Source: an uncultured Prevotella sp. (GTDB taxonomy: Bacteria; Bacteroidota; Bacteroidia; Bacteroidales; Bacteroidaceae). Taken from it: a DNA stretch of 64,000 bases. Shown in pieces: positions 19,716 through 54,828 of this stretch. Each line of letters starts with the position of its first letter. Position 1 is the stretch's first letter. The notes under the pieces were generated by a model that did not search any database, was not told the origin of the DNA, and was given only the letters and a program-made list of their open reading frames with translations. The translations under genes and the position numbers were made by a program. Location: positions 1 to 64,000 of the forward strand of contig CAMOGW010000003.1 in the NCBI GenBank assembly GCA_946614435.1. The letters are read 5' to 3'.

Positions 19716-19843
19716 AACGCGATATTTTACATAAAAACCTGTATCGAGAACGCGATATTTTACATAAAACCCTATGTCGAGAACGCGATATTTTACACAA
19801 AACCCTATATCGAGAACGCGATATTTTGCATCAATCTCCTGTG
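19716..19843. repeat. 33-bp tandem repeat, about 3.8 copies
   Basis: aacgcgatattttacataaaaccctatatcgag units at 19716, 19749, 19782, 19815; the minus strand reads KYRVLDIGFYV. Confidence 0.92.
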
Positions 19844-20413: not shown

Positions 20414-21178
20414 TTACTGTGCCGTCTTGGCCGGATAGAAGTGCTTCGTGCCGTCGTTGAACTTGAGAATGAGCGTGTCGCGATTCATCATGACGAACTG
20501 GGCCGTGTCTATGCCTATGGGCACGACGTTGCCCAGCGTGTCGAGTTGCACTTGCGTGAGCAGCAGCTTCCCGTTGTAGAGGTACCACATGCCGTAGTGC
20601 TTCATCTTCGGATATGCCACGACGCTCTCCTCTTCCTGTTGCCGATTTTCCGTGACGGTACTGCGCAAATAGGCCGAGTGGTCATTTCCTAATCCTAAGA
20701 CATATTCGCGTGGCACCGTGAGTTGCTGGCGAATCGAGTCGGGCAGATTGGCTATCATCTGCTTCTCCGTCTTTCCGTCCATGCCGGCATGCAGGTGCAG
20801 CGTGGGCAACACTTGCAGGCACCATGTGCTTCTCAGGTTCTTCATGCTGATTACGATGTCGGCCACGGTCGAGTCCTTGCCGTTGCGCACCACAGCCACG
20901 TCGTCGCCCGTCTTCAGATGTCCGAATATCGTGTGTTTGCGGGTAGCGTTCAGAATGTTGAGCGTATCGGGGTCTTCCCCGACCTTGTCGTTTGACAGGA
21001 ATATGAGGAGGGTGTCGGTCGAGCCTTCGCACACCAGTCCATAGATGGTGGAGTCGCCTTCCAGTACGAGTGCTACGGTATCGTTCTCCTGTGCTTCGTT
21101 GTCAGTTTTCTCTTGCTGGCCGCCACAAGCCATTGTCAGTAGTGAGGTCAGAATCAGTGGGATAATGAATTTCTTCAT
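20414..21178 (-). CDS. Hypothetical lipoprotein
   Basis: Lipobox LTSLLTMACGG; 254 aa, no recognised family. Confidence 0.75.
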   Translation of the reverse strand: MKKFIIPLILTSLLTMACGGQQEKTDNEAQENDTVALVLEGDSTIYGLVCEGSTDTLLIFLSNDKVGEDPDTLNILNATRKHTIFGHLKTGDDVAVVRNGKDSTVADIVISMKNLRSTWCLQVLPTLHLHAGMDGKTEKQMIANLPDSIRQQLTVPREYVLGLGNDHSAYLRSTVTENRQQEEESVVAYPKMKHYGMWYLYNGKLLLTQVQLDTLGNVVPIGIDTAQFVMMNRDTLILKFNDGTKHFYPAKTAQ

Positions 21179-21274: not shown

Positions 21275-21709
21275 ACTATAAGTTTTCAAAACATCTGCTC
21301 CATCTGCTCCCTTCCCGTAACTCGTTGATAGTCATGTGGTTCAATTCGGAGCAGATGGGAGCAGACGGGAGCAGATGATTTTAGCTCATTTTGCGCAACG
21401 ATTTAGCTAAAACCGCTGCGCCATTTAGCCTAAACCGCTGAGACCATTTAACCTAAATCACAAAATGACCTGAGCATGATCGTGATGCGATCTATCCTAA
21501 ACCGCTGCACCATCTTGTCTAAATCGTTGCACCATCTCGGCTAAACCTCAGCATGATCAGCCCTGCGCCGTGTGCGTAAGGCATACTAAGACAATTCTGT
21601 AGCTTTCATCTGTCACCATCTGCTCCCGTCTGCTCCGCCTTCAACTGCCTCGTATTCAGAAGGTTGGCAGATGGGAGCAGATGGAGCAGATGTTTTGAAA
21701 ACTTATAGT
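21275..21709. mobile_element. MITE-like element with perfect 37-bp terminal inverted repeats enclosing a 22-bp repeat array
   Basis: 21275-21311 and 21673-21709 are exact reverse complements; inner ggagcagacgggagcagat/atctgctcccgtctgctcc arms. Confidence 0.75.
21377..21598. repeat. Degenerate ~22-bp tandem array (about 10 units)
   Basis: Units such as gatttagctaaaaccgctgcgc, catttagcctaaaccgctgagac, gatctatcctaaaccgctgcac, catcttgtctaaatcgttgcac. Confidence 0.75.
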
Positions 21710-21808: not shown

Positions 21809-23590
21809 ATGGGAAAGAAGAAAATCAAGTTCAGTCTTGTCTATCGCGACATGTGGCAGTCAAGCGGAAAGTTTCAGCCGCGCAAGGATCAGTTGGAGCG
21901 CATTGCTCCCGTCATCATCGATATGGGGTGCTTTGCCCGTGTAGAGACCAATGGCGGCGCTTTCGAACAAGTGAACCTCATGGCAGGCGAGAATCCTAAT
22001 GATGCCGTTCGCGCCTTCTGTAAGCCATTCAACGAGGTGGGCATACAGACCCACATGCTCGACCGTGGCCTGAATGCACTGCGCATGTATCCTGTACCCG
22101 ACGACGTGCGCGAGCTGATGTATAAGGTGAAGAAAGCTCAGGGCGTCGATATTCCGCGCATCTTCTGCGGTCTGAACGATACACGTAATATCATTCCCTC
22201 CATCAAGTGGGCCAAGGCGGCAGGCATGATTCCGCAAGCCACGCTCTGCATCACCACTTCGCCCGTTCACACGGTGGAGTATTACAGCGCTATTGCCGAC
22301 GAGGTGATTGCTGCCGGTGCCGAGGAAATCTGCTTGAAGGATATGGCCGGTATCGGTCAGCCGGCCATGCTCGGACAGCTGACGAAAGCCATCAAGACGA
22401 AGCATCCCGACATCATCATTCAGTATCATGGTCATTCAGGCCCGGGCCTCTCCATGGCCTCCATCCTTGAGGTGTGCAACAATGGTGCCGACATCATCGA
22501 TACCGCCATTGAGCCACTCTCATGGGGTAAGGTGCATCCCGACATCATCTCGGTGCAGTCGATGCTGAAGAACGAGGGCTTCGAGGTGGCCGACCTCAAC
22601 ATGAATGCCTATATGCAGGCACGCACGCTGACGCAGGAGTTCATAGACGACTGGCTGGGCTACTTCATCAATCCTGCCAACAAGCACATGTCGAGCCTGT
22701 TGCTCGGTTGCGGCCTGCCTGGCGGCATGATGGGCTCGATGATGGCCGACCTGGGCGGCATTCAGACCATGATCAACAAGCTGCGCGAGAAGAAGGGCGA
22801 GCCTGTGCTGACGATGGACGACATGCTGGTGAAGCTGTTCAACGAGGTGGAGTATGTGTGGCCGCGCGTGGGCTATCCCCCACTGGTCACCCCGTTCTCG
22901 CAATACACGAAGAACATCGCCCTGATGAACCTCCTCACGATGGAGCAGGGAAAGGGCCGCTTCGTGATGATGGACGATGCCATCTGGGGCATGATTCTCG
23001 GCAAGAGCGGTCGCATTCCCGGCACTATCGATCCGGAGCTGGTGGAACTGGCCAAGACGCAGAAGCGCGAGTTCACCGATGCCGATCCTCATACGCTCAT
23101 CCCCAACGCGCTCGAAGGCTTCAAGAAGGAGATGGACGAGAACGGATGGGACTACGGTAAGGACAATGAAGAGCTGTTCGAGCTGGCCATGCACCCCGAA
23201 CAGTATCGCCCCTTCAAGAGCGGACAGGCCAAGAAGCAGTTCCTGGCCGACCTGCAGAAGGCGAAGGATGCCAAGCTGGGCGGCGGCAAGGTGAGCGCCG
23301 AAGAGATAGCCGCCCTGAAGCATGCCAAGGCCGACGCACTGGTGTGCCCCTCAGCCGGACAGATCTTCTACGAGTTCAACGGCGACGGCGAGTGTGCTCC
23401 CTGTGTTGAGCCGTTCATCGGCCAGACCTATAAGGAGGGCCAGACCTTCTGCTATCTGGTGGAGAAGTGGGGCGAGATTGTGCCCATTCCCGCAGCCCTC
23501 GGCGGCAAGCTCGTCGATGTGCAGGCCAAACAGGGTGCCAAGGTCCGCAAGGGCGACGTCCTGGCATGGATTGAGCGAGAAAAACAGTAA
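21809..23590 (+). CDS. Oxaloacetate decarboxylase alpha/pyruvate carboxylase subunit B-like carboxyltransferase
   Basis: VYRDMWQSSGKFQPRKDQLERIAPVIIDMGC...; GLNDTRNIIPSIKWAKAAGM; EEICLKDMAGIGQPAMLGQL; QYHGHSGPGLSMASI; biotinyl-like C-term. Confidence 0.9.
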   Translation: MGKKKIKFSLVYRDMWQSSGKFQPRKDQLERIAPVIIDMGCFARVETNGGAFEQVNLMAGENPNDAVRAFCKPFNEVGIQTHMLDRGLNALRMYPVPDDVRELMYKVKKAQGVDIPRIFCGLNDTRNIIPSIKWAKAAGMIPQATLCITTSPVHTVEYYSAIADEVIAAGAEEICLKDMAGIGQPAMLGQLTKAIKTKHPDIIIQYHGHSGPGLSMASILEVCNNGADIIDTAIEPLSWGKVHPDIISVQSMLKNEGFEVADLNMNAYMQARTLTQEFIDDWLGYFINPANKHMSSLLLGCGLPGGMMGSMMADLGGIQTMINKLREKKGEPVLTMDDMLVKLFNEVEYVWPRVGYPPLVTPFSQYTKNIALMNLLTMEQGKGRFVMMDDAIWGMILGKSGRIPGTIDPELVELAKTQKREFTDADPHTLIPNALEGFKKEMDENGWDYGKDNEELFELAMHPEQYRPFKSGQAKKQFLADLQKAKDAKLGGGKVSAEEIAALKHAKADALVCPSAGQIFYEFNGDGECAPCVEPFIGQTYKEGQTFCYLVEKWGEIVPIPAALGGKLVDVQAKQGAKVRKGDVLAWIEREKQ

Positions 23591-52158: not shown

Positions 52159-54339
52159 ATGGCAAAACAGCATAACGAGGAACTGCGCACTGCGTGGGAG
52201 TTCGTGGAGAATACGGGCCGGAGCATCTTCCTTACGGGAAAGGCAGGCACGGGTAAGACAACATTCTTGAAGACCGTGGTGGAGAGGAGCCGCAAGCGCT
52301 CTATCGTGGTGGCGCCTACGGGCGTGGCTGCCGTGAACGCGGGCGGCATGACCATCCATTCGTTCTTCCAGTTGTCGTTCTCCCCATACGTGCCGGGAGC
52401 CAAGGTGGAGAGCAAGTTCGACTTCGGGCGCGAGAAGCGACGCATCATCTCCTCGCTCGACCTGCTCATCATCGACGAAATATCAATGGTGCGCAGCGAT
52501 TTGCTCGATGCCATCGATGCCGTGTTGCGCCGTTTCCGCGACCACTATCAGCCCTTTGGCGGGGTGCAGCTGCTCATGATAGGCGACTTGGCACAGCTCA
52601 CACCCGTGGTCACGCCCGAGGACGAGAAGATGCTGGCACCCTATTACGACACCCCCTATTTCTTCGGCTCGAAGGCACTGGCCCAGATAGACTATGTCAC
52701 CATTCAGCTTGAGCAGGTCTATCGCCAACAGGATGCGACGTTCATCGACATTCTGAACCACATACGCGACGGCCATCCCACACAGGCGATGCTCGACCGG
52801 CTCAACCAGCGCGCACTGCCTCGTCAGGCAGCCCATCCTTCGGCGACCGAAGCCTATATCCGGCTTACCACTCACAACAACATAGCCGACCACTACAACG
52901 AGTCGGAGCTGCACCGGCTGCCCTCGCGCTCGTTCTTCTTCCGTGCCTCTATCGAAGGTGCCTTCCCCGACTATGCCTATCCCACGGCTGAGCTGCTGGA
53001 ACTGCGGTTGGGCACGCAGGTCATGTTCATCAAGAACGACCCCACGGGCGACCGCCGCTATTACAACGGGCGCATAGGCCGCGTGACCTATGTCGATGAC
53101 CACCATGTGCGAGTACACTGTGAGGGCGACGAAGATGCTATCGAGGTGGAGCCCTTAGAATGGGAGAACACGCGCTATACGCTCAATCCCGACACGCGCG
53201 AGATCGTGGCTGAGGTGCAGGGCCGTTTCCGCCAGCTGCCCCTCCGGCTGGCATGGGCCATCACCATTCATAAGAGTCAGGGCCTCACGTTCGACCATGC
53301 CATCATCGATGCCAATCAGAGCTTCGCCCCGGGGCAGGTCTATGTGGCGCTGAGCCGTTGCCGCTCGCTTGAAGGACTGGTGCTGGCCGCTCCGCTCAGT
53401 GCGCGTTCCATCATCAACGACGAGCGTGTTGACAACTATCTGTCGCATCAGGAAGAGGCTGCGCGCGAAAGCATCAGCCACCTGCCCACGCTCAAGGAAG
53501 AGTACTACCGCCATCTGCTGCTCGAGCTGTTCGACTTCCGCACGCTGCTCTATCAGCAGGAGTACATGGTGCGCCTCTTCTCCGAGTTCTTCTACAACAG
53601 CCATAACTCGCTCACGCAGCTGCACAAGCAGGCCCTTGATGCGTTGAAGACTCAGGTCATGGACGTGGCCGCAAAGTGGACCACCCACATCGGTCAACTC
53701 ACTACCGACCAGCTCCATGCTCCCGACTTCTTGGAGCGGGTGGGGCGCAGTGCCACCTATTTTGCCGACACGCTTGAGGCGCTCCTGGCTAAACCCTTGC
53801 AGCTCACCGCCGAGGTGAAGCCCACCAACAAGTTGGCTGCCAAGCGGCTCTCCACCGTGCTGCCCGACCTGCGGCAGGCATGGCTCTCGCGTCGCTACCT
53901 GCTCTCGCGTATGGCCGACGAGGGGTTCAGCATCACCACCTATCTGCGCGAGAAGCAGATGTCGCAGCTCGATGCGCTCGACGAGGGTGTGGTGAAGAAG
54001 TCGCGCAAGAGGGCCGAGCCGAAGCCCAAGGAGCCGAAGCCAAGGACCTGGGAGGTGTCGTGGGCGCTTTATCAGGAAGGCAACAGTCCGCAAGACATAG
54101 CCCACAGCCGAGGGCTCACCCTTGGCACGGTGTTCGGTCACTTGTCTCGTTTCGTTGCCTCGGGGCAGCTGTCGCTCGACGTGCTCGTGCCTCCAGCCCA
54201 TCAGCAAGCCATCCGTCGGGCGCTGCAGATGGTGAGTCAGGGCGAGAGTTCCAACGCAGTCAAGGCACTTTGTCCGCCTGATGTCACCTACGATGAGATT
54301 CGTCTGATGATGAACCTCGCTTCGCGTTCTGAGTCTTAG
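52159..54339 (+). CDS. PIF1/RecD-like AAA helicase with C-terminal HTH
   Basis: IFLTGKAGTGKTTFLKTV; VVAPTGVAAVNAGGMTIHSFFQL; LLIIDEISMVRSDLLDAID; AITIHKSQGLTFDHAII; YVALSRCRSLEGL. Confidence 0.92.
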   Translation: MAKQHNEELRTAWEFVENTGRSIFLTGKAGTGKTTFLKTVVERSRKRSIVVAPTGVAAVNAGGMTIHSFFQLSFSPYVPGAKVESKFDFGREKRRIISSLDLLIIDEISMVRSDLLDAIDAVLRRFRDHYQPFGGVQLLMIGDLAQLTPVVTPEDEKMLAPYYDTPYFFGSKALAQIDYVTIQLEQVYRQQDATFIDILNHIRDGHPTQAMLDRLNQRALPRQAAHPSATEAYIRLTTHNNIADHYNESELHRLPSRSFFFRASIEGAFPDYAYPTAELLELRLGTQVMFIKNDPTGDRRYYNGRIGRVTYVDDHHVRVHCEGDEDAIEVEPLEWENTRYTLNPDTREIVAEVQGRFRQLPLRLAWAITIHKSQGLTFDHAIIDANQSFAPGQVYVALSRCRSLEGLVLAAPLSARSIINDERVDNYLSHQEEAARESISHLPTLKEEYYRHLLLELFDFRTLLYQQEYMVRLFSEFFYNSHNSLTQLHKQALDALKTQVMDVAAKWTTHIGQLTTDQLHAPDFLERVGRSATYFADTLEALLAKPLQLTAEVKPTNKLAAKRLSTVLPDLRQAWLSRRYLLSRMADEGFSITTYLREKQMSQLDALDEGVVKKSRKRAEPKPKEPKPRTWEVSWALYQEGNSPQDIAHSRGLTLGTVFGHLSRFVASGQLSLDVLVPPAHQQAIRRALQMVSQGESSNAVKALCPPDVTYDEIRLMMNLASRSES

Positions 54340-54574
54340 GCAGTACGATATCCTGTTTTAGGCAATTTCGTGTAGCGTTCTACCCAAAATCACAACATGA
54401 TATAAGTTAGATGGCATGGTGATATAGGATAAACCGTGTCATGATATAGAATAGACCGTGCTGTGATTTAGAATAGAACTCATTGTGCTTTAGAATAGAA
54501 CTCATTGTGCTTTAGAATAGAAGTCATCGTGCTTTAGGATAAACAGCATTGTGCTATAAGGTAGGCCATGTTGT
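54333..54574. repeat. 22-bp degenerate tandem array, 11 units
   Basis: Units at exact 22-bp spacing, e.g. gatataggataaaccgtgtcat, gatatagaatagaccgtgctgt, gctttagaatagaactcattgt; first three units are more diverged. Confidence 0.85.
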
Positions 54575-54612
54575 GGCTGAGGTTGTATTCTTCTTTACTC
54601 TACTATCCAATA

Positions 54613-54784
54613 AAGTTTTCAAAACATCTGCTCCATCTGCTCCTTTGCGTAACACATTGATTTTCATTTGTTTACGTGCGGAGCAGATAAAAATCATCTG
54701 CTCCCATCTGCTCCGCTTCCTAACTGTTTGCTTTTCAGGAAGTTAGCTAAAAGGGAGCAGATGGAGCAGATGTTTTGCAAACTT
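54613..54784. mobile_element. Nested inverted-repeat element related to 21275-21709, without internal array
   Basis: aagttttcaaaacatctgctccatctgctcc (54613) vs ggagcagatggagcagatgttttgcaaactt (54754), 30/31 complementary; inner cggagcagat/atctgctccg arms. Confidence 0.75.
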
Positions 54785-54828
54785 CTTTTGTTACTGTATG
54801 AGTTTATAGTGATGGTCCGAAGAGGCTT

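Follow-up and report, generated by a model that had tools for sequence, protein, structure and literature searches.

The replication modules of SaPIs and PICIs place a primase-helicase gene beside a repeat array that differs between elements, and the RIP/RIB elements of E. coli consist of short repeat units that are inverted at their ends and contain an IHF site, for which the consensus is WATCARN4TTR. Correia/NEMIS of Neisseria are described in PMC2229807 as small and repeated, again inverted at the ends and bearing an IHF site. Among the Bacteroidales, excerpts of PMC4596501 present BrickBuilt, a MITE of Porphyromonas gingivalis with 19 intergenic copies, in which short inverted ends enclose a 23-nt tandem array. 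BT4734-like proteins are placed in the archaeo-eukaryotic primase family in excerpts of PMC5862659, which also list VirE/VapE domains as predicted helicases of mobile genetic elements.

Here, we analyzed a window of 64,000 nucleotides from an uncultured Prevotella sp. (contig C3 of its genome, G000) that carries a 435-bp element composed of a hairpin, a 22-bp array and an inverted hairpin, each hairpin spanning about 104 bp. As read from the sequence, the left monomer (21275..21378, plus strand) comprises an outer arm (21275-21311), a loop of about 36 nt and an inner arm (21348-21377), and the right, inverted monomer (21606..21709, minus strand) has its inner arm at 21608-21637 and its outer arm at 21673-21709. 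A covariance model of the hairpin (R1) matched both, at G000:C3:21274-21366 (plus, E 5.8e-19) and G000:C3:21618-21710 (minus, E 2.5e-18). The initial annotation had claimed perfect 37-bp inverted ends and a second pair of inverted arms, and both are there: the outer arms are exact reverse complements over 37 bp. Each is part of a hairpin, and the annotated layout of terminal inverted repeats plus array, although real, is better described as two hairpins around an array than as terminal repeats with separate inner arms. The array itself (21380..21556; matches to the sequence-only array model R2 at 21380-21558) contains 8 near-22-bp units with a consensus of about TTTAGSCTAAATCRYGNYRYGA, rather than the ten or so first proposed. 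Its consensus appears dyad-symmetric, single units often combining one strong and one weaker half. A related composite annotated at 54.3-54.8 kb also proved real, consisting of an 11-unit array (54335..54576; R2 matches 54336-54501) outside a doublet of hairpins from this family arranged head to head (~54607..54790; matched by R1 at 54607-54699, plus, and at 54696-54790, minus). A 19-mer of the arm occurs 4 times in the window compared to a mean of 0.01 in shuffled windows, and the 22-bp array was absent from all five shuffled versions of the window. A separate 33-bp tandem repeat at 19716-19831 (3.5 copies, 91% matches) differs from the 22-bp array.

The element is noncoding and lies, as annotated, between divergent genes, a lipoprotein-like ORF that begins at 21178 (minus) and a carboxyltransferase ORF that begins at 21809 (plus). 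This divergent-promoter position is incidental, given that 50 hairpin clusters divide into 20 in tandem, 12 in convergent and 8 in divergent gene contexts, plus 8 located within called ORFs and 2 located at an edge. Being short, noncoding, multi-copy, intergenic and bounded by terminal inverted repeats, the element has the features of a MITE. With regard to a target-site duplication, its flanks read ACTATA/TATAGT, but the comparison genome G160 is too diverged to place the junction. Judged by the excerpts of PMC4596501, the element shares with BrickBuilt its intergenic location, a tandem array within inverted ends and a Bacteroidales host, but the BrickBuilt ends are 12-nt IS5-like terminal repeats of the GAGACCTTTGCA type, from which the window ends differ. 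PINSR of Prevotella intermedia is likewise a lineage-specific intergenic repeat in Prevotella, but according to excerpts of PMC4755523 it is 188 bp long and without terminal inverted repeats, a description that the window element does not fit.

The family is far from confined to the window, as the genome-wide search proposed in the initial annotation returned dozens of loci in G000 and variants in relatives. With the element as blastn query, 93 pieces were found in G000. R1 gave 81 matches merging to 39 hairpin units, and R2 gave 115 matches merging to 36 array loci, both locus lists being merged by hand; the hairpin alignment comprised 33 of 43 chosen monomers, from 84 extracted, and 30 of 37 segments went into the array model. 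Hairpins and arrays were strongly associated: a hairpin lay no more than 131 bp from 24 of the 36 array loci (0.58 expected), and 26 of the 39 hairpin units had an array within 300 bp, the other 13 having none nearby. Of 17 single hairpins, 10 had the array on their outer side, 9 of these at a gap of 49-81 bp, and 7 had it on their inner side, 6 of these at a gap of 0-50 bp; this clustering of gaps makes the geometry non-random. Twelve G000 arrays lacked the GGAG hairpin; most of the 11 that were read carry a longer second repeat with a TTTTGCAA-type hairpin and the same loop core. This second repeat family measures about 400 bp and combines the same 22-bp array with another hairpin, TTTTGCAA..CTGATNATCAG..TTGCAAAA (L237-L247, e.g. 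C28:13486-13577). A pair of hairpins spanning 3.3 kb (L076, on contig C20) was considered as an autonomous element and rejected, as it encloses ordinary host genes.

In the G000 hairpin alignment the arms are near-invariant. The loop consensus TATCAAnnGnTTA fits WATCARN4TTR and represents a candidate IHF site. An exact match inside inverted ends, the arrangement of RIP/RIB/CREE-type elements, was present in 25/52 G000 loops (shuffle mean 0.19) and in neither of the two loops of the window element, and spacers other than 4 gave 0-2 matches in G000 loops. Elsewhere, 32/47 loops matched exactly (sets 7/12, 2/3, 2/4, 10/11, 1/3, 3/6 and 7/8); this test covered 120-bp stretches at 12 of 14 G302, 11 of 13 G164 and 3 of 5 G170 loci and, for family B, the 8 of 11 loci at which the script detected a hairpin. 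Because the loops are homologous copies, the IHF-type match counts as one conserved feature and not as 57 independent events. Correia/NEMIS and RIP/RIB differ from the family in having other sequences, no tandem array and no primase-helicase partner (for Correia/NEMIS, going by PMC2229807).

Tandem periodicity was assessed irrespective of sequence, taking the best lag between 15 and 40 within ±450 bp of hairpin copies. Lag 22 was best in 63/99 hairpin neighborhoods and lag 23 in 2/99, whereas control tiles of the window gave lag 22 in 0/64 and other lags in 5. By genome, lag 22 accounted for 22/37 neighborhoods in G000, 10/15 further ones in G023, 10/14 in G302, 3/3 in G160, 3/4 in G043, 9/13 in G164, 4/5 in G170 and 2/8 of the remaining loci; three of the 99 had a different best lag scoring at least 0.5 (20, 31 and 33). 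Dyad symmetry reached p<0.05 in 39/67 arrays. Across 217 G000 units, the two halves showed no covariation and were anti-correlated at two position pairs (z -3.9 and -3.4), a pattern that suits half sites recognised separately better than it suits stems in RNA or DNA.

Related genomes revealed both empty and altered sites. At the window locus, G160 retains both flanking genes with about 66 bp between them, compared to about 630 in G000, and lacks the element; G302 has another upstream gene and also lacks it. G170, 91% identical at the locus, carries the element with GAAACAGAT-type arms in place of the GGAGCAGAT of G000. Throughout the dispersed family, arms vary between species in a complementary manner, reading GGAG, GAAA, GTGG, GTTG or GTGA before CAGA, and sites are kept at orthologous positions in a species that is 90% identical. 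Wherever a comparison was made, G000 and G023 shared about 100% identity and are thus not independent. With the GGAG-type hairpin model, for which up to 14 candidates were scored per genome, the count among relatives is at least 13 of 299; G232, G262, G138 and G015 have one to a few loci apiece. In other Prevotella species, hairpin and array both recur with unrelated sequences and a constant 22-bp period, the units being GATTTAGSCTAAATC in G000, G170 and G160, CAATTCAGSCTGAATTG in G302, TACCAAnnnTTGGTA in G043, GGAACAAnTTGTTCC and AGGTGCCACCTTCGAGGGCAGG in G164, GGAAACCnnTGGTTTCC in G262 and AAAACGSCGTTTT in G232.

Complete copies explain the layout of the window element. Their order is hairpin, DUF6078 gene, 22-bp array, BT4734-like primase/VapE helicase/DUF3874 gene and inverted hairpin, such that the window element corresponds to a copy with both ends and the array but neither gene. 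In G164, G043 and G262, complete copies measure 2.8-3.1 kb and encode a DUF6078 protein of about 145 aa and a BT4734-like_N/VapE/DUF3874 protein of 611-744 aa (ORFs were called by a simple longest-ORF rule, so starts are approximate, and some starts for the array and end tests were set by hand). G000 itself has, at C22:20689-22565, a hairpin, an array, a 433-aa VapE-like plus DUF3874 ORF and an inverted hairpin; this ORF, the sole DUF3874 match found there, is truncated and lacks the primase domain. G170 has one DUF3874 match, flanked by hairpins in the same way. The gene in these hairpin-flanked copies of G000 and G170 is truncated, and full-length copies reside in other species with ends of their own. 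Pfam assigned DUF6078 to 6/6 small ORFs submitted, and DUF6078 lay directly upstream in 9/18 DUF3874 matches above the cut-off (19 genomes). Among 11 examined DUF6078 genes located apart from a DUF3874 match, the downstream array had a 22-bp period in 6 and a 23-bp period in 1. The array beside the complete or truncated gene shares its unit with dispersed arrays in five genomes (G000, G043, G164, G262 and G138), and G164 has, in addition, a second type of dispersed array that differs from the one in its complete copy. G164 also contains a second DUF6078/VapE copy with entirely different inverted ends (L292, C17; 87 bp, 83% identical). DUF3874 was not found in the hairpin-bearing assemblies of G302, G160 and G023, which are 56-84% complete, nor in G232 (97% complete), which has hairpins and DUF6078.

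The association of array and gene extends beyond Prevotella. Repeats of 22 or 23 bp occurred within about 350 bp upstream of 16/24 BT4734/VapE/DUF3874 genes, the arrangement of iterons adjoining an initiator or helicase gene, and the remaining 8 had no such array at threshold; among 35 window ORFs used as control, an upstream array was seen for 2, both adjoining the window element. The 24 genes include 3 from Bacteroides finegoldii, 1 each from Bacteroides sp., Parabacteroides distasonis and Phocaeicola massiliensis, and 2 gut contigs filed as phage. In P. distasonis, annotated DUF6078 and BT4734 genes are adjacent with a 22-bp array between them. Three Bacteroides BT4734/DUF3874 copies adjoin divergent HU-family genes, with DUF6078 not annotated (L317, L319, L321). 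Inverted ends matched in 12/13 copies (E<=0.01), the exception being G004 C11, compared to 8/156 mismatched pairs. Ends also matched in direct orientation in 8/13 copies, which can arise because they are palindromic, and end sequences are unlike one another in most copies. The primase-helicase profile matched PDB 7pds, 'Similar to D. nodosus vapE'; the DUF6078 profile had no PDB match, and PHROGs and NCBIfam returned nothing for five DUF6078 proteins. Two DUF6078 proteins and one hairpin pattern gave no hits in a viral contig collection, nor did element DNA in a plasmid collection. The family resembles SaPI/PICI modules in that a primase-helicase gene adjoins an element-specific repeat array (on primase families of mobile elements, see excerpts of PMC5862659), but differs in its inverted hairpin ends, its many gene-less copies per genome and the lack of visible integrase or phage genes. 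From BrickBuilt, as portrayed in the excerpts of PMC4596501, it is set apart by its hairpin ends of about 100 bp, dyadic 22-bp units and the primase-helicase genes of its complete copies; BrickBuilt might be a cousin.

Other origins of these repeats were also considered. Host regulatory or chromosome-organising sites devoid of mobility, with the array as operator or nucleoid-protein array and the hairpins as terminators or IHF/HU sites, would fit dyad units spaced two turns apart, the IHF-type consensus and the conservation of orthologous positions in a 90% identical species. We nevertheless consider this unlikely, as gene context is mixed across the 50 clusters, the G160 site is empty, units are unrelated between species, and arrays plus ends recur round one gene pair across families. 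An ordinary MITE of an IS family, comparable to BrickBuilt of IS5-type elements, would share the size, terminal repeats, intergenic location and internal tandem repeats (cf. the excerpts of PMC4596501), but appears improbable: the ORFs between the matching ends of complete copies are DUF6078 and BT4734-VapE-DUF3874, and none resembles a known transposase. DUF6078, an uncharacterised domain, might itself be a transposase.

An origin as a REP/REPIN family that a Y1 (RAYT) transposase mobilises would have in its favor the occurrence of hairpins as intergenic singlets and inverted doublets, some 40 units in number, with lineage-specific sequence variation. No Y1_Tnp (PF01797), however, turned up in G000 (an incomplete assembly), G023, G302, G164, G043, G232, G262 and G267, all of which have hairpin-model matches, and the Y1 genes whose flanks were examined adjoin different repeats or none. 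With no Y1 partner found for the family, we regard this origin as quite improbable. Divergent Y1-domain proteins of about 330 aa, possibly RAYT-like, do occur in Prevotella relatives, some near other hairpins with GTTTTGC loops (L144, L145, L147, L148, L149). Highly improbable, in our estimation, is a function of ends and array as RNA: the arms are complementary and transcribed hairpins would be able to fold, but compensatory pair changes, sought in the G000 hairpin alignment, were not seen, the 217 array units lack covariation, and Rfam matches were solely eukaryotic microRNA or snoRNA below gathering score. A Rep_3 iteron plasmid origin was rejected, PF01051 being found in 1/14 genomes (G010) and absent where the arrays of the family occur.

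According to these data, the window element probably arose by internal deletion within a Bacteroidales mobile-element family with a primase-helicase, which would make it a non-autonomous, MITE-like derivative. The labels MITE-like and iteron-like of the initial annotation are both apt, whereas the DUF6078 and BT4734-like/VapE/DUF3874 genes of the complete copies had not been foreseen. By analogy, the repeat length beside an initiator-helicase gene suggests that the array serves as origin or operator, and we infer the binding of proteins, replication and the manner of movement. The array would be an iteron- or operator-like site recognised by the element's own proteins, its reader most plausibly being the DUF3874 C-terminal region or DUF6078, and this recognition would start or regulate replication. 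An IHF/HU-type protein would bend the hairpin loop, and the hairpin ends would be recognised during copying to a new site. Every lineage's protein may be specific for its own array and hairpin sequence, which would account for the divergence of both between species under a constant period and layout.

More tentatively, the family could represent a Bacteroidales-wide mobile class that moves without a known transposase or integrase and seeds gene-less copies as lineages re-specify array and ends together. It would rely on a primase-helicase and on DUF6078, which might be a novel recombinase or a factor binding the ends, together with the hairpin ends, a site of IHF type and a 22-bp array acting as a self-specific origin or operator. 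As the initial annotation had supposed, no described family has this combination in the literature searched, which mostly excludes subscription journals: we found no description of a DUF6078/DUF3874/BT4734 element, of a Bacteroides MITE associated with a primase, of such a Prevotella repeat or of a VapE/iteron pairing. Nor did that literature yield a published role for the BT4734/BF3469, DUF3874 or DUF6078 genes of gut Bacteroidales, which thereby gain a testable cis-site. If their proteins mobilise the gene-less copies, the family would constitute a transposon-like class driven by replication proteins. The constant 22-bp period across unrelated sequences offers a natural series in which to follow the joint change of a DNA-binding protein and the sites it recognises.
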